A stretch of 64,000 nucleotides of DNA from Polytrichum commune. Lineage: Eukaryota; Streptophyta; Polytrichopsida; Polytrichales; Polytrichaceae. A model generated the notes under the pieces. That model saw only the letters and a program-made list of their open reading frames with translations. It did no database searches and was not told the origin of the DNA. The stretch lies in the NCBI GenBank assembly GCA_950295325.1, contig OX485809.1:26412001-26476000 (forward strand), in the 5' to 3' direction. Shown one piece after another: positions 37,198 to 48,123 of this stretch; within the stretch, counting starts at the first letter, position 1, and each line of letters opens with the position of its first letter. Made by a program: the position numbers and the translations under genes.

Positions 37198-37229
37198 TAA
37201 GTTCTTAGTGACATGACTACGCTATTTTC

Positions 37230-37283
37230 TCTAATTAGTGTGGGTTACCATTCAGAGTTATGTGTTGCTATCATTTTTTTCTA
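37230..37283. repeat. Left terminal inverted repeat of short element N
   Basis: CTAATTAGTGTGGGTTACCATTC and the following 30 bp are the inverse of 46811-46863. Together they bracket MITE M copy 2, which itself holds the CACTA element. A copy without such insertion appears to lie at about 12640-12815 in intron 2 of the aldolase-family gene. Confidence 0.6.
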
Positions 37284-37319: not shown

Positions 37320-37680
37320 CACTAAATATGATATCTAGTGTCATATGGTATTTTATGTCACTATGGTTACTTTTGGATGACACTTCTCATGAATAAGTGA
37401 ACAAATATTGTCATGGATGAGTTCGTCCATTGCTCAAAACCCTACCTTCCTCTTGTCGGCAACTTATGATAAAATATTGTCATGGATGATTAGAATTTGG
37501 ATGAAAAATCACTTGGTAAGTGACAGTAATTGCAACACTATAAATCTATAACCCCCCCCCCCCCAAAAAAAAATCTACAAGGAATGACAAATAATCTTGG
37601 ATCAACATTTAGTGTTGGTGGCACTTCACCGTGGTTTAGGATTAGTATTGAGCAAGGCAATTAGAATTGGCGATACTAAA
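37320..37680. mobile_element. MITE family M, copy 2, left part (split by the CACTA element)
   Basis: Matches copy 1 (6674-7037) from its CACTAAATATGATATCTAGTG tip up to GGCGATACTAAA. The remaining 14-bp tail (TTTCATACTTAGTG) appears only at 46732-46745, beyond the CACTA element. Confidence 0.85.
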
Positions 37681-38037
37681 CACTACAACAAAACACGTCT
37701 TTTATTCCAACACCCATTTCACTACATGTCTTTTATTATTATTAACAATGAACTGGTGAAATGGTTGAATTCTATCTTTACACATTTTATGTCCGAATCA
37801 ACTTTGGGGTGACATGGTAGTGAAATGGGACAAAAATTCACTTGGGAACGCACTTGAGAACGTGTTTGGGAACGTCTAAGAGAACGTGCATGACTGTGGA
37901 AAATGAAGTGGTTGATTTGGGTTTGTCAATTCAAAATGTCACATGTTTTTGGGTTTTGCACTGAATACTCACAAAAATGACCCATCTCTTTTTGGATCAA
38001 TAATGAATTGTACATATTTATACACAATATGGCATTT

Positions 38038-38876
38038 TTATACATTCAACATATTGTAATTTAATCTATTGATCAGAGCATTTCCATCTTCTTCAATTCC
38101 AAATTCATCCTTATCTTCGTAAGATGGTTCATCTTCATTTGCGTTCAAAGCTACAACCATTAGATCACTGCTTAAAATCACAACCTCGTCTAATATTGGA
38201 TTTGTTGGTGTAGCATCATTGTCTAACGATGTTGGTACCAATCCACAATGCTCTTCAACATTGCCTAAAGACATGCTTCCTATGTCCGGCATATAAACTT
38301 TTCTAGAAACAACTCTTGCTCCCCTTGGTTTTTTCTGTAGAACCACCTTCCATCCATGATTGTTCAAATCATCCGCAAAGAAAACTTGTTCAACACGGAG
38401 TGGAAATGCAAAAGATTCGGTTGATAATGACACTAGTCATTATTAAGGGGCACGAGAACTGCTTGCAACGGGTTGGTAGGGTTGTCCTTGAATAGTAGAG
38501 TTATAGCTTCTTTCAATAATTCCTCCATGTTCTCAACATTGTCATCATTATCTTCATCATCCACGTATGGTTCTACATTGGCCAATTCGTCCAAGCCTTC
38601 ATGAATTTCATTAAGTTTTTCTTTCGTTTCTTCTTTGTTTGGAGTGGTATTTGTACATCCGGGCAAACCATCATACCTCCCGAAACATTCATTGACCATC
38701 TTAATTACCTGAGCCGCTTTTTCATTATTATCATGTATAGTTTTTTCATTTTTTTCTAGTGCCATGTCTTCATCTACTTCTGTTTCTATATCATTATTTC
38801 CTTGTACCGTCATATAGCTCCTTTCTTGTGTCGCCATACATATGTGTTTTTGTGCAATATAAATGTCATTGTTCAC
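38038..38876 (-). pseudogene. CACTA TnpD-like remnant: acidic linker plus DUF4216-like segment
   Basis: Two adjoining minus-strand frames (38876-38433 and 38433-38038). The first is strongly acidic (DDEDNDDN) and ends with a segment resembling the pre-core part of CACTA transposases (ELLKEAITLLFKDN). The second contains VEQVFFADDLNNHGWKVVLQKKPR, the signature of the DUF4216 region C-terminal to the Tnp2 core. The core domain expected between them is absent, so an internal deletion close to 38433-38450 is inferred. Confidence 0.7.
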
Positions 38877-39624
38877 CTCCTATATGTACACCAGGTATAA
38901 GAAAATAATACAAGTGCTCATAGTAAAAAAAAAATTCATACACCCAATTTCCATACATACCATACAAGATAAACCATATCCCTCTACTATGTATGTTAGG
39001 GATCAAAACTTAAACCCTAGAACCAATAACCTAATGTTTAAATGAAGGTTTAATATTCTATAATGGCCAACCCAAAGGTCCAATACAATAGGACAAATTT
39101 AGATTTTAGATTTTAAATTTTAAATTTTTTATTGCATGACTACTAGAAGTTGTATCTATTTTGTACAAAGTGATCTTTTAACCCGGATTTCACTCAATAT
39201 TGGAGATGAGAATCACACATATAATGATATTAAGTGAACCCTACATTTTAAATCTTACGCATGAGGAGCATATGTTAAATGAAACCAATAGATACTTATA
39301 CAACTTTAGTTGTACGATGATATAATGACATGTAACATCATCTTAGTACAAGTTATGACACACTATGGCACCCTAGGTATGCATATGACTTCATGGTGCC
39401 CTTTCTTTGCTACATGATAACCTGTGGTAATCTAAATATCATAATAACTCTATGACACGCCATGATAGCAGTTTGCTACTCCAAGTATTAGTATATGTCC
39501 ACTAATTCTTAAAATTTGCTTACAAGTGACTATATTAAGAGGACCCTAATATCCTAGTACAATAGATAGTTTTAAAATTAGTAATAAATTAAATGTGCAA
39601 AATAGATTAAAAAACAACACAAGT

Positions 39625-40518
39625 TCAATGCACGGAGTAATGCACATACAACTCTTCTCCTGGTTCTATATCCCTTGATGCAATTGTCATAACAAAACCC
39701 CATTCGGTCATCTTTCAAGGTTTTGGAAGCATGCTATACTCCCACACTACATTGCCAATTTATTCTCGTCCTATGGAGCTATTAATAAAACCTGCAACAT
39801 TGCCCCTCTCCACACTCTTGTCTATGTAAATATCATCCTCGGCTTTAAGGACATAACTTTTGAAGCAGGGAACAAGATTCATCATTTTGCGGTATCATTT
39901 ATCTAACTTGATGTACTGGGGGACCCATAAATGGCAAAAGAATATCGCCTGATTTTGTGGAATCTATAGCAAATAAACCCCATCCCATGAATGAAAATTT
40001 TGAAATTTTCACTTCCCAATTTCTTTGGTGAAAGTTGAAAGTGGTGAACTTTGGTATGGGACCATTGCACCACTGCCCATCAAAGGCTTCAAACCTCCAA
40101 TTCATCAATGTCAACTCCTCATTAGTGTAGTTTCTCTTTTTGGGGACAAGTTTTGGGATTCTCATCTCTTTAAAAAAACGATTGTATGGCCACCTTAGCT
40201 GCTTCCTCAACAAAAGGCCGTCTTTGTGCCTACACAAATGCAGTAAATATTACATCAAAATTCAATCGACTCATTTATAAAATAATATAATATGATGAAC
40301 GCAAATATATCACATACCAATATGGATTTTGTAAACGCTGAATCTCGTTTATATCGATGGAGATGCTTTCGTATGGTTGCTCTTGGCAAAACCTTTCCCC
40401 CTGCACACATACTGCAAGGGCATCGATACTTTACCAATCCTCTTTTGTCTGCTTTTTTTTTCTTCCTCCGAGTCCATAGCTCCAAGTTTAATAGTGCGCA
40501 CCTTGATGTTTCATCCAT
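39625..40518 (-). pseudogene. Transposase-associated N-terminus followed by a SET-domain segment inside the CACTA element
   Basis: Exon-like segment 40518-40322 has YRCPCSMCAGGKV and TIRKHLHRYKRD, resembling the N-terminal zinc-binding part of CACTA transposases. After a plausible intron, 40229-39899 ends in GWGLFAIDSTKSGDILLPFMG, matching the start of a SET domain. Past a frameshift near 39900 the same strand reads IYIDKSVERGNVAGFIN and, after two stops, WGFVMTIASRDIEPGEELYVHY, matching the SET C-terminal half (the NHS and ELxxDY regions). The His of the usual NHS motif is Ser here. Stops and the frameshift make this a pseudogene. SET is not a normal CACTA component, so it was probably captured. 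Confidence 0.7.
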
Positions 40519-42193
40519 TTTGAATCTACATTAAAGTAAATGAAATTTGGTTACTCCAAATGTGAACTTAAATTATTTGATAAAAGATGTAGGCACAATT
40601 GCAAAATAAAATCCCCAACAACATCATTTGCCCCACATATGTTGTAATTAGTCTAGAGAACTTAAAATGTGGGTTGCTTTAACTTAAAGTCCACATCTTT
40701 ACTTAATGTAGTGAATGACATTACTTGACATAGTGAATAACAACTGAAGGCAGTGAACTATTTTTCCCGCCTAAATACCCATGACGCCAACATTATGATT
40801 ATTCAAATACTGAAAGGTATAAGAGCTACAAGTGGGGCCCCTAGCGCTTTCTCTTCCTGCATACTTCAACCTCTTCAAACCTTACTTGCACGCTTCATAA
40901 CTTAGAAATCATAGTTCCACACTTCACAACTTTTGAAACCTTAGTTTACACTTGAAACCCTTCAATCCATTCAACTTTCTACACAAAAAATGAAATTCTT
41001 ATGGTTCTAACTTAGAATTACTTGAAGGGCAAAATACCGAAAGTGAGGCAACCCACCAATGGGGGCCCTAACCCGTTTTCTACTTGCAAGCTTCACAACT
41101 TCTCAAACCCTACTTTGCATGCTTCACTTTGTATAAACCCTACTTTGCACATCCCACTTTCTAGAAACCCTACTTTGCAGGCTTCATTTTAGGAAACCCT
41201 ACTTACACATAGTTTCTCAAACCCTACTTGGTGCACTTCACAACTTAGAAACCCTACTTGCACACTTCAACCTCTTCAATATTTGCAACTCTCTACACAC
41301 AATGGAGATCTTATGGCGTTCACAATGATTTGCAAGGTCAAACGTGTGATTGAAGAGGTGCTCGAATACGAACAACTTAGGCGGCAAAAAATTGAAGTCA
41401 ACACCAGAAGTTGGAATCCTTGGGGCTTCCAACATTAGCGGCGGCGGTCCTAACTTGAAGAGGTAAACATGCATCCCTAATCAAAGTCGATGTTGTCTTT
41501 GTGGTTTTAGTCTACATTAGGAATTGTTGTGGTTTGAAACTTATCACCGCAATTTGTCTCCCTTACCGCAATTCTTTTGTCGCAGCTACCCAAGTGCCCG
41601 AATACGACTCTGCTTGCAACTACACAAGCACATCCTTCCCCCTCATGATTGCGGATCTTGAGCTCTTAGGGTTTGGTCTTGATTGCCTCATATGAGCTCC
41701 ATATTTTGCATACATTTAGCCATGTTAGTTTCTCCATTGTCTCTCATTGTGTCATTGTATTTATTTATATCTGAACTATTAAGACATCAACAAACTAATA
41801 TATGTTTGAAAATTTTTGAACTTACATGAGATTAGCTTATGTCAACTTAGTTTACCCTATGTCACACAACTAATGTTTGTGTATCTCACTTTGATAGTTG
41901 ATCTCGACTCCCAAAACTTAAACAACGAATGTCAGTTTGAAATCCCTAAACCAACATATAATCAAAGCTTATGTCAACTTAGCTCACCCTATGTCAAACA
42001 TGCTATGTTAGTTTAGTCCACACAAAAATTTAATTTGGACTCCTAAACCCTAAACAAATAATGTGAGTTTGAAGGAAACTAATGATCCAAGCCTGTATTG
42101 CGGCCTAAACCCTGGAAACTAATTGAGTTCTTCTCCTTTTAGAACAACAATTTATTGTAATTCATCCTTTTGTCTAGAGCCCCCAACTCACAT

Positions 42194-43047
42194 CAAATTA
42201 TTATGGAGCTACCCACCTTACTTAGTGTAATAGCTACATTGTGCAAAGAAGACGTAAAGACATTGTTTGTAGAGGTTTCCCAATTCCATGCAATCAATGC
42301 TTATATGCTAGGAAAAATGCAAGAATTACTGGCTAACACATTTGAGGATTCCAAGACAATATCCGATTCCCTCAAGCCACCTAGGAAGAGATCAAAGTTA
42401 TCAACCTTACCATCAATATCAACGCAAATAAAGGCATGACAGAGTAGCAAGGAAGATGGTATGTCCAATGAACGAATAGAAAAAAAATAATGACGTAGAC
42501 TACGCCTTAGAATCACAAACAGAAGAGGAAGAAGAGGAGCCCAAAATACCCCTCACAGTTCAGCAGAAACCGGTAAGTTAAACAAATATTTGGCTACATA
42601 TGTCATTTCAGGCTTTGCATTCTTTAAGTTGTTCAATTTCATGCATTAAACTCAAACACAAAGGAATAAGTATTGTAAGTGTCTTTGTATGTACTATATG
42701 TACTCCTAATAGTCAATCATAGTTTTGCATTGTGATCTACATCAAATTTGTTAGGACAATAATTATAGTAATGTACAGTTGAATATTACTATGTACAGTT
42801 GAACATCACTCTCTATACAGAAAGTAGGTTATGAATTTACATGACTAAAACTATTTTAACAAAAAATTTGCAGCAATCCAAAAATCCAAGAATCTGGTCA
42901 CAAAGGAAGAAAAAGATGGCTTCAGCCCCTAGGGACAAGAGCAAACCACCCGTTGACGATCTTGAAGATTGGAAGAAAGATGGTGACAATGAAGAGGATA
43001 GTGAAGAGGAAGGTGAAACTTTTGATTGGAGCAAGGCAATCCATTAG
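42194..43047 (+). pseudogene. Second CACTA gene remnant (plus strand), coiled-coil and acidic
   Basis: A 78-codon frame from 42194 (predicted helical, KEDVKTLFVEVSQF, then the basic PPRKRSK) runs into an acidic Glu-rich segment ending at a good donor near 42571 (GTAAGT). A possible following exon begins near 42873 after TTTGCAG and encodes DKSKPPVDDLEDWKKD then an acid-rich tail to 43045. Similar degraded coding texture continues to about 45700 (for example 45361-45610). Its orientation opposes the left-hand gene. Confidence 0.45.
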
Positions 43048-46000
43048 AAGAGGAGAGATATTATATACGAGTGTAGGGGAAGCAACTAGAAAGCGATGAT
43101 GTTGTTGCTCCCAATGATGGTGTTGCAGCCAAGCTGGCCTTGGTAATTGAAAAGAAAGAGTTAGAATTCATGAAAAGATAATTGGCATTGACATCATGCC
43201 TTCACTAGGTGACGTCATATAATAGTGACGAAGAAGAAGACAGATTTGGCGAAGAATGAGTTGCAATACAAAGGAAATCAACACATAACTTGCAAATGAA
43301 GGCTAAGAAGAGGGTTGCCAACAAAGCATGTCGGAAGCAATTTGAAGAGAGAGCGAGGGAGGAAAATTGTTTTTTGTTGTGGATCTTGATGATAATGATA
43401 TACAATAATTAATTGATGGACTTGTAATTTGCTTTTTTTTGCTTGCTAAACATGTGATAATATGGAATAGTATGTAAATATTTATATTGTTTCAAGCTAA
43501 TGTGGTTGTTATTTAACATGGGATGTGGTTGATGTGGATTATTTTATAGGATTTCCTAGTGGGGTGTATAGGCCGCAACGGCTCAATATTTTGCATGGCT
43601 ATTCCAACGTTTTGAATTGGAGTATGAACAACATTAATGACTAGGATGAGATGACACTTAACAACATCTACACGCGTATGAAAGATAATTGAGAATATCG
43701 TGGATTCAAAGGGAAACCTAGAGTGTTAAGGTACGAGGTCTTTAAAAGTAACTTAGACCAATAGTTGAAGAGCAAAAGATGTCAAATGAAGATACGTATA
43801 TTGAAAGGATTAGAAAAAATACAGTCTATTTGTATGGATCACTGTTGAATATGGTGGAGCACACTTGCGATCCCATGTAAATTGAGCAATATTTTTAGAA
43901 TATATTGGTGTAGTACACAATAATGACCATTTGCCGGAGATTTTTGCTCACGATATATATTGGTGTAGGCGTCACAATTGAATAGAGAGCCCCGCCAAGA
44001 TGAAATAGAGGTGGAGCTTATTAGAGATAAAAATACAATATTGTCAAAATATGGTTGTCCAACGTCTTCCACTGTATCAAGGGGGGGTTAAGTGATGTTC
44101 AATGTGGTTTCGGGTTAACTCCTCATGTAAGTCGCATGAATAGTGTAGAACTTGAGAATGTAAGGGCAAAGACAAAATAATTAGATGAAATATTGAATAC
44201 AATTTAAAGCTCGCTAGATGCGGTGATAGCTAAGTTTGGTATCCCAGTGAAATAGTGGCTACTACACCCTCACGTGGCGAACACCGTTTTAATGTTGAGA
44301 AAGAAAAATCAAACTCTCATAGAAATGTGTCTCCCCTTGCACGCTCAAGCTTAAAAGAACCTATAAGCAAGGTTTTGGAGGTGTAGTTGAAAAACCAATT
44401 GTAGTGGGTGCACAAAACCCTTCCGGATCCCAAAAAAACCCCGTTAGAAAATAAGAAAAACATGTATGATTAATGTAAAAATATGAAATTTTGTGGTTTA
44501 TATCTTCATTAATGTTTTCATTTATTTGTATTGTAAGAGGATGATCGTTTGGAGTTTGATGTATCAAAGTTAATTTATGTATTCAAATATCTGTTAATAT
44601 ATGTGGTGGTGTTTAATGCACTCAGTGGAAGTTGTTATGAATAAGTACAAGAGATTTCCAGCGGTGTTATTTACACGTCTGGAAGACCATCGTCAAATCA
44701 AGGTGTCTAAAATCATGATGGGGATATAAAAATAAAGAAATGACTTAAACCTAAGCGGATATGATTGAATGAAGACGATAAATTGACTTTAGAGGCGTTG
44801 CCAATATTGCAGAAATGTGACGTCTAGACAAAAGGGGTTGCACTATGAATAATATTTATGCTAGGTTATATTGCCCATATTTTGAGGTCAAATTGTTGTG
44901 GACTTATATTGATGAAAGTTGACCAGGATTAGTCTATCTAACATACTAGGATTGTAGACAATGGATTATTCAATATCATGCTAAAATGGTTGAGTAGACA
45001 TGGTAAATACCCATCAGTGGTATCAATTATTGTATTATCTAGAACCTACTAACAAATGTGAATATCTGATGTAATGAAGGTAAACAAGTAAAAGAAAAAT
45101 AAAACATTGTGGAGAAATTGAGGTATAACCCATCAATGAAGGACAAAAAAAAAATGGAAAAAGAAGGAGACAAACACATGGTGGATAAACGTCGGGCTGA
45201 TAAACCTCCCCTTGCTACTAAGGCTTCAAAAAATATTCAAGCCCTTTAAGATTTGGTGAGGTTTTTTTAATGTAACATGGAATATGATATAATTGCAAAC
45301 CATCAAACCCTAAAAATACATATTCTTGTGACTAACATATAGTTGTTACAATGTGCAGAATGTGGGGGATGTGGTATAAATATGTGGTTATAAGGAGGAA
45401 GACTCCAAGACGGTATTCATTGGAAATGATGTTATTAAGAATGTAGTAGGTGGGATGTTGCACTTAAGGGTGATAAGTAAGGGCTACGTTTTTCTTACAA
45501 TCACGGAGTCGTGTAAAGACAACTATCCCTTACTTGATCCCCTTAATGAAGACAACCCTCCAATCACTATAATTGGCAATGCAAAAAACATTTTATTGTT
45601 TGGCCAACTGATTGTCTAAGGTTATATGAGGTTGCGTGAGTGTGTAGTGGACTTGTAGACCAATATTGATTTTGAGACATAAACCTCTATGGAGTTTTGT
45701 AATTATCACTGGTAGTAGTGAATTTTGAAACATGAATGACATATTATTTTTATAAATATGACTTGGTTTTTAATCTTGCAACCATATTTATATGACTGCA
45801 CTTGATAGATGATTGTATTATGAACTTCACTGTATCTCGGAAAATTTATAGAGTCACCCTACTTTTGAAAGTGAAGTGAAGAGAAATTAGATGACTCCAC
45901 ATAGAAATGCTAGTATGACCAATGAGAATATATTGTGCATGCCATTAACATATGACTATGTTGAGTCAATCTCATGTTACTTGCTATAATAAACCAAATC

Positions 46001-46731
46001 ATTTGCATCTAAAAAATAGCACTTAACAAAGTCATATAAACTTCACTACTAGTAATACATAATAAATACATATGACAACCACATGACTTCACAAAGTAGG
46101 CCAAATACTAATGGTTAATGTAAACTTTATTCCACATAGTAAAGTATATATTACACCATAAAATGAAAAATATATGCTATTGTCATATTTGTTACTATAT
46201 TCAATCACACACACTTACTACGTAGAGTTATTGACCTCCTTCATTGTTGTCCGAGTTTAATAGAGGCAATAATGTGGATAAATTAATTCAACCTGTGTTA
46301 GTTAGCTTGAAACATCTTTGTATCAACCATATTGTTAACGCTAACTAGTAATTTGGAATGTATATATATGCATTATACATGATATGACTTTGTGTAGTGA
46401 AGTGCAAATGTTAGTAGACACCATACACGATTGGTGCCAGTGCCATAATATCATTAGGCTTAGTTATATGGATGTATGTCTTATCTTTCTTATATTGACA
46501 AGATGTAGTGAAATAGGACATAATTTTATGAAGTAAAGTACGTGTAGCACCCTAAACTTCACTGCCATTGGGAACGTGTCCATTGGGAACATCCTGTCTG
46601 ACATGACTACGACCATACTACACTGCTTGTTTGAAGCGACTGGTCGTTTTCAACGGTAGTGAAGTCCGTGTTTTCTCACTTGTAGCAGTAAAAAAACCCA
46701 ATCGTAAAAGACGTGTTAAGTTGTAGTGAAA

Positions 46732-46810: not shown

Positions 46811-46863
46811 TAGAAAGTTATAGCAACACGTAACACCGAATGGTAATCGACACTAATTAGACA
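46811..46863. repeat. Right terminal inverted repeat of short element N
   Basis: Inverse of 37230-37283 (around TAGCAACACGTAACACC and CGACACTAATTAG), with about 80 percent identity by eye. Confidence 0.6.
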
Positions 46864-46984
46864 AAACAATGTAGAGTCAAGACCTCTTTCTCTTGTCAGC
46901 TAGGAACTTTTAAAGAAATTGTTGACTTTTTATTGATTGCGGATGTCCCCTGCACTAATTACTTATAATAACATGAGTCTTCGA

Positions 46985-48123
46985 AGGGGAGGACGTTAAA
47001 CACCCCCCACGTACTTTCAGGGGGTGTCAGATTTGGGCTAGGGCAACCCCGCTGAGTTTTCTTCAAAATTTCTGAACCCAACCGAAAACTCCTGCCTGCC
47101 CTGCCGAACTTCGACAAAACCATTGTTCTTGCATTCTTGAAGGCCACTTATCCACAAATCCCATATTGAGTGCATTTTACCTTCAAGGTCCAAAATCCAA
47201 TATATATGATCACTTGCCATTGAGTAAATAAGCACTTGACTGAGATTTCATCTTAAAAGTGAAATCATAATAAAGCATGAAATTAATTTGAAGGTAAAAA
47301 GTATTACGAAACCCTCATTAAAATAAAGGTTATTTTGTGACTTGTAATTTGAAATTGTCTTTGTCATTCTAAAATGAAACTTATATTAGTGTGTTGATTT
47401 AGTATGTGCATTTTGTAATATTTTAGATTATGCCTTCTACCTTCAGAAGTATTCAACTACGCATTCAAATAATTACGCTTAATTATATGTAATCAAATAA
47501 ATCATGATTAATTCCAGTAAATATATTTTTAATTAATTAGTATTGATTAATTTGGTAAACATACATTTTGATTGGATTGGGCTTAATTATGATTAATCAG
47601 GATTGATTATACTTAATTGCATTCAATCACACTTAATTTGAATGCGTGTGAATACTTTTGAAGGTAGAAGGCATTATCTAAAGTATTATAAAATATACAT
47701 TCTAAATCAGCACACTGATTTAAGTTTCATTTTGGAATGACAAAGACAATCTCAACTTACAAGTCACAAAAAATAACCTTTATTTTAATGAGGGTTTTGT
47801 AATGTTTTTGACCTTCAGATTAATTACATGTTTTATTGATGATTTCACTTTTAAAATGAAATCTCAGTCAATTGCTTGTTTACTCAATGGAAGTGATCAT
47901 ATATATTGGATTTTGGACATCGAAGGTGAAATGCACTCAATATGAAATTTGTGGATAAGTGGCCTTCAAGAATACAAGAGCAATGGTTTTTTCGAAGTCG
48001 GGCGGGGCGGGCAGCAGTTTTCGGTCGGGTTCAGAAATTTCGAGAAAAAGTTTGCGGGGCTGCCCCAGCCCGGATCTGACACCCCTGAAAGTTCGTGGGC
48101 GTGTTTAACGTCCTCCCTTGGGA
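46985..48123. mobile_element. Foldback element with about 490-bp inverted arms
   Basis: The left arm 46985-47475 and right arm 47633-48123 are inverse copies with roughly 85 percent identity; both begin GGGAGGACGTTAAACAC at the outer end. The 157-bp centre is AT-rich and itself repetitive (TTAATTATGATTAATCA-like words). Long TIRs with no gene suggest a foldback or MULE-derived element. No 9-bp target duplication could be confirmed. Confidence 0.82.

Follow-up and report, generated by a model that had tools for sequence, protein, structure and literature searches.

The window, that is, the whole 64,000-nucleotide stretch of Polytrichum commune DNA analyzed here, is best explained as holding a decayed member of a lineage of plant CACTA (tnp2-type) transposons that encode SET. 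We put at roughly 60% the probability of this reading as a whole, in which the lineage would make a TAD-SET and a TAD-transposase protein by two-way splicing and the TAD-SET protein would counter silencing. Comparison across copies revealed that the SET exon has been inherited with the transposase over several diverged subfamilies and is absent, or a relic, in some relatives.

In the proposed mechanism, one transcript would be spliced in two ways. Joining of the TAD exon to the SET exon would give a protein of ∼265 residues terminated by the stop of the SET exon itself, and joining of the TAD exon to the transposase exon, with SET skipped, would give the transposase. The shared TAD would guide the SET protein to whichever DNA or complex the transposase uses, where it would methylate a histone (or the transposase) and so help the element stay expressed despite host silencing.

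Structure of the element in the window

The original prediction of a CACTA element at this place was borne out. The two ends, which begin with CACTA, are 92% complementary over 24 nt, and the element is flanked by a 3-bp target site duplication, as were six of six chosen relatives (Table 1). Relatives carry a tnp2-type transposase (PF02992, 229.7 bits), which is deleted from the window copy. We fused both flanks with a single AAA and searched the genome for the resulting empty site; among 40 scored candidates, a match spanning the junction was found at 39 other places, the 40th being the window's own right flank. This fixes the borders of the element exactly and shows that it sits in one copy of a dispersed repeat. 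Just beyond the CACTA ends lie inverted repeats of 61 nt with 82% identity (37217-37277 and 46814-46874), which are the arms of a dispersed foldback-like repeat that the element invaded and of which at least 39 copies are uninterrupted. Another foldback element of ∼0.9 kb, with arms 89 to 94% complementary in several blocks, occupies 47108-47998.

Table 1. Features of the window copy and its target site, in window coordinates
Feature	Position	Strand	Remarks
Target site duplication AAA, left copy	37678..37680		Flank reading and empty-site search
CACTA element	37681..46728	-	9,048 bp; minus-strand transposase gene with its core deleted; non-autonomous
Terminal inverted repeat, gene 3' side	37681..37704	+	Pairs with 46705..46728
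C-terminal tail of transposase frame	38038..38437	-	Reading frames and alignment to complete sister element
Deletion junction	38438..38442	-	∼3.8 kb lost: Transposase_21, DUF4218, DUF4216 region (domains known from relatives)
5' part of main transposase exon, cut by deletion	38438..38879	-	Alignment to complete sister element
SET exon with frameshift and stops	39625..40229	-	AG acceptor to stop after domain
TAD-like first exon (CPCxxC...TIRKHL)	40318..40518	-	GT donor at its end, phase 0; PF13963 below cut-off
Remains of second, divergently read gene	42161..45619	+	TnpA-like by position only; no Pfam match
Terminal inverted repeat, gene 5' side	46705..46728	-	Pairs with 37681..37704
Target site duplication AAA, right copy	46729..46731		Flank reading and empty-site search

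On the minus strand the window copy reads TAD-like exon, intron, SET exon and then the start of the transposase exon at 38879. When aligned to a complete sister element, it lacks ∼3.8 kb between 38442 and 38438; the end of the transposase frame and then the terminal repeat come next. The transposase core had been described as missing after SET; it is indeed absent here, through a deletion in this copy.

The SET domain predicted from the letters was recovered in a six-frame search of the whole genome with PF00856, which matched C7:26451637-26451963 (window 39637-39963, minus strand) with 28.3 bits against a cut-off of 22.4 (E 5.9e-4); the open piece 39899-40249 scanned alone gave no SET match. 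An intact SET exon at another place in the genome shares 72% and 67% identity with the two pieces of the window SET. Three stops interrupt the PF00856 match, in agreement with the predicted breakage by a frameshift and stops, and the copy is dead. For the transposase N-terminus thought to precede SET, position and homology to related first exons were in favor and the domain score was not: the frame at 40255-40530 reached 18.3 bits with PF13963 (cut-off 27.7), and the TAD of an intact relative also fell short, with 20.7 bits. The name TAD is therefore based on where the exon lies and on its homology with the first exons of related transposases.

Inside the element, upstream of the TAD exon, lie short direct repeats (40871-41259 and 41834-42073; 46 and 108 nt) that are possibly binding sites or promoter repeats. 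The second, divergently read gene is common to relatives and has an acidic, coiled-looking product; its divergent frames are conserved with a relative.

The SET-bearing family in the genome

The PF00856 search gave 119 matches across the 407.8-Mb genome, many of them dispersed single frames of 198 to 202 codons. With one such dispersed SET exon as the query, at least 150 matches were obtained (150 of 207 candidates scored), with identities from 100% down to 28%, and these merge into at least 137 loci, both counts being lower bounds. Counted by eye, 45 of the 150 matches extend stop-free over 194 or more of the 198 query positions, at 43 to 100% identity. We grouped the copies by identity into subfamilies I (Ia to Id), II, III (IIIa and IIIb), IV, and V. 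The window copy falls in family I: over 919 to 949 aligned positions its DNA is 81 to 83% identical to that of copies of Ia, Ib, and Id.

We inspected 61 SET loci (56 fetched and 5 from longer pieces) and used 53 after omitting eight with early stops (L025, L049, L060, L063, and L065 to L068), which leaves a sample biased to open copies. Further CACTA copies with SET were abundant, and a TAD exon lies upstream of SET in 51 of the 53 (4 of these 51 TAD exons contain a stop). In intact relatives SET scored 32.5 to 45.6 bits with PF00856. At locus L001 the SET exon is followed by Transposase_21 (229.7 bits) and then by DUF4218 (124.7 bits), and L003 additionally has DUF4216 (32.6 bits).

In a survey from the transposase side, with one core as the query, 76 of 772 candidates were scored and 77 matches were obtained. 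In 56 of the 77, SET lies on the same strand no more than 8 kb upstream, and in none does it lie downstream; the remaining 21 have no SET within 8 kb, so SET is dispensable. A genome-wide search for the family I terminal repeat gave 151 + 121 occurrences, against 0 + 3 for the control. Among the matches listed, exact 3-bp duplications flank six of six terminal repeat pairs picked for enclosing SET loci. One complete element, C2:4749156-4758763, is 9,608 bp long.

In two subfamily Ic elements, L002 and a sister near C1:46.95 Mb, the TAD exon is preceded on its 5' side by part of a plant aspartic protease gene (L002:6895-7305, plus strand; TAXi_N 38.9 bits, Asp 26.1 bits), likely a true captured gene fragment. 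Ends of a different CACTA-like family (CACTACAACAACCCGAACC) were observed near or inside SET-bearing elements, at L002:776 and in the stretch C1:46937500-46960499, and are probably nested insertions. On contig C8 of genome G000 (L123), an intact RuBisCO large subunit gene of plastid type, in keeping with a land plant, stands ahead of an accD-like frame, and C8 is probably the plastid genome.

Catalytic potential of the SET domain

Canonical SET lysine methyltransferases carry the motif NHSCxPN. In 22 aligned SET exons, taken from the 53 open ones and used to build the family profile, the motif retains Asn147 and has lost the histidine and the cysteine; GWG, Asn147, and Tyr123 are invariant, and Tyr195 is nearly so. 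A cysteine-rich post-SET region is absent from these exons. The best matches of the profile among solved structures were the H3 lysine-4-specific methyltransferase 6bx3 (E 1.6e-5) and ASH1L (E 2e-5). Two AlphaFold models were of low confidence (mean pLDDT 40 and 43), and a fold search with the second gave no match at E ≤ 0.001, the best 50 rows all being SET proteins.

The SET domain could instead be a non-catalytic module retained for structure, binding histones or other proteins or assembling a DNA complex. The incomplete canonical motif and the absence of post-SET would fit such a role. The invariant GWG, motif asparagine, and Tyr123 and the nearly invariant Tyr195 over 22 exons argue against it, as do PR-domain enzymes such as PRDM9, in which the canonical histidine is missing yet activity is retained. 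We consider a purely structural SET domain unlikely, at odds of about one in three or slightly less, and favor the reading in which it would be an enzyme.

Exon structure and predicted products

The SET exon is placed between the TAD and transposase exons and is in phase with TAD. Its AG acceptor is present in 45 of 48 testable copies, and in complete copies the SET frame meets a stop right behind the domain. An in-phase transposase acceptor was found in seven of the eight SET-bearing loci examined (families I and II) and in four of six SET-less loci, all six of which have a matching donor at the end of the TAD exon; in the family III loci read, no definite transposase acceptor was identified. 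Since TAD is in phase with both SET and the transposase, TAD-SET and TAD-transposase could both be read from one transcript, and we infer that both products are made.

Alternatively, the SET exon could be spliced on into the transposase frame, giving a single TAD-SET-transposase protein. The three exons do stand in order on one strand in phase 0, and among 12 copies a GT was found near the SET end in families I and III. Families II and IV have no GT there, and the SET exon runs into a terminal stop in each of the five subfamilies whose end is complete (I, II, III, and, in two of three copies, IV). With a stop at the end of the exon and no end donor conserved between families, a fusion protein is less likely than two products; SET-less relatives, moreover, appear to splice TAD to the transposase in phase. 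We therefore regard the fusion as improbable. The original prediction had allowed for a CACTA lineage encoding a transposase-SET protein: the lineage stands, with many copies, co-divergence, and purifying selection, and it is the single fused product that is doubtful.

The two-product reading has a precedent in maize En/Spm, a CACTA element whose transcript is alternatively spliced to yield both TnpA and TnpD. Two products per transcript would be a likeness to the elements described here; En/Spm has no SET exon, and the splicing in our elements is deduced from phase and splice sites. More tentatively, and at odds well short of even, one gene would encode two proteins with a common targeting N-terminus, a transposase and a SET enzyme writing a histone mark on copies of the element, the latter amounting to a long-kept, self-guided anti-silencing writer.

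Selection and history of the SET exon

Between better-separated subfamilies, SET dN/dS was 0.18 (Ia-Id), 0.23 (Ib-Id), and 0.19 (Ic-Id) at dS of 0.62 to 0.68, and 0.30 for IIIa-IIIb at dS of 0.40. It was higher between closer subfamilies (Ia-Ib 0.65, Ib-Ic 0.44, Ia-Ic 0.36) and ranged widely within subfamilies: Id 0.22, IV 0.33, Ia 0.35, II 0.46, IIIa 0.91, Ib 0.99, and IIIb 1.46 (one pair), with Ic undefined. Between families I to V, dS was near or at saturation in most comparisons. High ratios within young groups and low ratios between better-separated subfamilies indicate that young copies drift while lineages are constrained. For the transposase core the values were 0.20 (Ia-Id), 0.23 (Ib-Id), 0.22 (Ic-Id), and 0.52 (II), and for SET in the same copies they were 0.18, 0.23, 0.18, and 0.43. 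By this measure SET is constrained as much as the transposase between lineages.

SET and transposase distances among 18 elements are strongly correlated (Pearson 0.98, Spearman 0.89, reached in 0 of 5,000 permutations). In a transposase tree of 35 rows, whose rooting branch (87/86) is not strong and in which several distant rows are long-branched, no fewer than three changes are needed to account for the SET-less rows, whose main clade falls within the SET-bearing rows with strong support. Six of eight loci without a SET match have a TAD exon followed by the transposase; the upstream stretches read at L094 and L095 contain neither TAD nor SET. Relics of SET are present in L107, first used as an outgroup, and in L096, first called SET-less. 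The simplest history suggested by these data is one old gain of SET and several losses. For subfamily Ia, a loss of the transposase with SET kept was considered and rejected: the stop shared by the Ia copies read, at query residue 560, is probably beyond the exon. Two Ia copies carry further stops inside the transposase exon.

That the window element itself transduplicated a piece of a host lysine methyltransferase, as a Pack-CACTA, had been one of the two original proposals and is now very improbable. CACTA elements do capture gene pieces, the aspartic protease fragment of the two Ic elements being an example here. SET is found at many loci in several old subfamilies, which it predates, is under purifying selection, and diverges together with the transposase; among the eight host SET loci compared, no close or recognizable donor gene was found, the 22-exon profile matching them weakly (at best 15.8 bits). 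An old capture of SET in the ancestor is possible and is part of the best explanation. As outside sources of SET, 28 pattern matches in viral contigs and 63 in bacterial and archaeal genomes were followed up, and none was confirmed. The idea that SET is an independent nested insertion with no relation to the CACTA element, which without counterparts elsewhere had been named beforehand as a refuting outcome, can be set aside, since nothing was found in its favor and SET has counterparts in other copies, at the same position and in the same splice frame in diverged subfamilies.

Relation to known systems and significance

SETMAR/Metnase is a host gene that acquired a mariner transposase. SET and transposase sequences are joined there (PMC4036204; PMC8761672), as they are here; the SET domain of our elements is held by a mobile element and that of SETMAR by a host gene. 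In PMC12730594, SET genes are described as acquired by HarbingerS and oomycete MuDR elements, with Kojima and Jurka 2014 cited for the SET methyltransferase encoded by HarbingerS and Phytophthora MuDR families. Those are, like the present elements, DNA transposons with a SET gene, but they belong to other transposase superfamilies; the transposase here is Transposase_21/tnp2 and not of the Harbinger type, and the SET exon of this tnp2-type CACTA lies between TAD and the transposase. PMC12730594 also describes fungal DNA transposons, EnSpm included, that carry a TET/JBP dioxygenase proposed to counter silencing. In both cases an EnSpm/CACTA element would carry a chromatin- or DNA-modifying enzyme, a DNA demethylation enzyme in fungi and a SET exon in a plant.

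For plants, an anti-silencing protein, VANC, is described in VANDAL elements (PMC10398659; PMC13317346). VANDAL elements are plant transposons with a self-targeted anti-silencing protein, as we propose here from sequence, but they are Mu-like and not CACTA. To our knowledge, VANC is not a methyltransferase. The predicted TAD-SET product is probably a self-targeted anti-silencing enzyme. The terms "SET domain" and "methyltransferase" are absent from the main text of a 2026 review of plant gene capture (PMC13317346), and no SET-encoding plant CACTA was found in the titles and abstract openings searched, which included few subscription papers and no Repbase reports. Within this literature, SET is known from Harbinger and MuDR elements, and the SET-bearing plant CACTA, so far from one genome, appears to be new.

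With a SET exon kept open under selection, these elements may edit their own chromatin. Transposon-borne chromatin enzymes are one route by which selfish DNA can resist silencing. Automatic annotation may miscount transposon SET exons as host methyltransferase genes. The presence of SET-bearing and SET-less sisters in one genome would allow a direct comparison of the effect of SET on copy number, expression, and chromatin.
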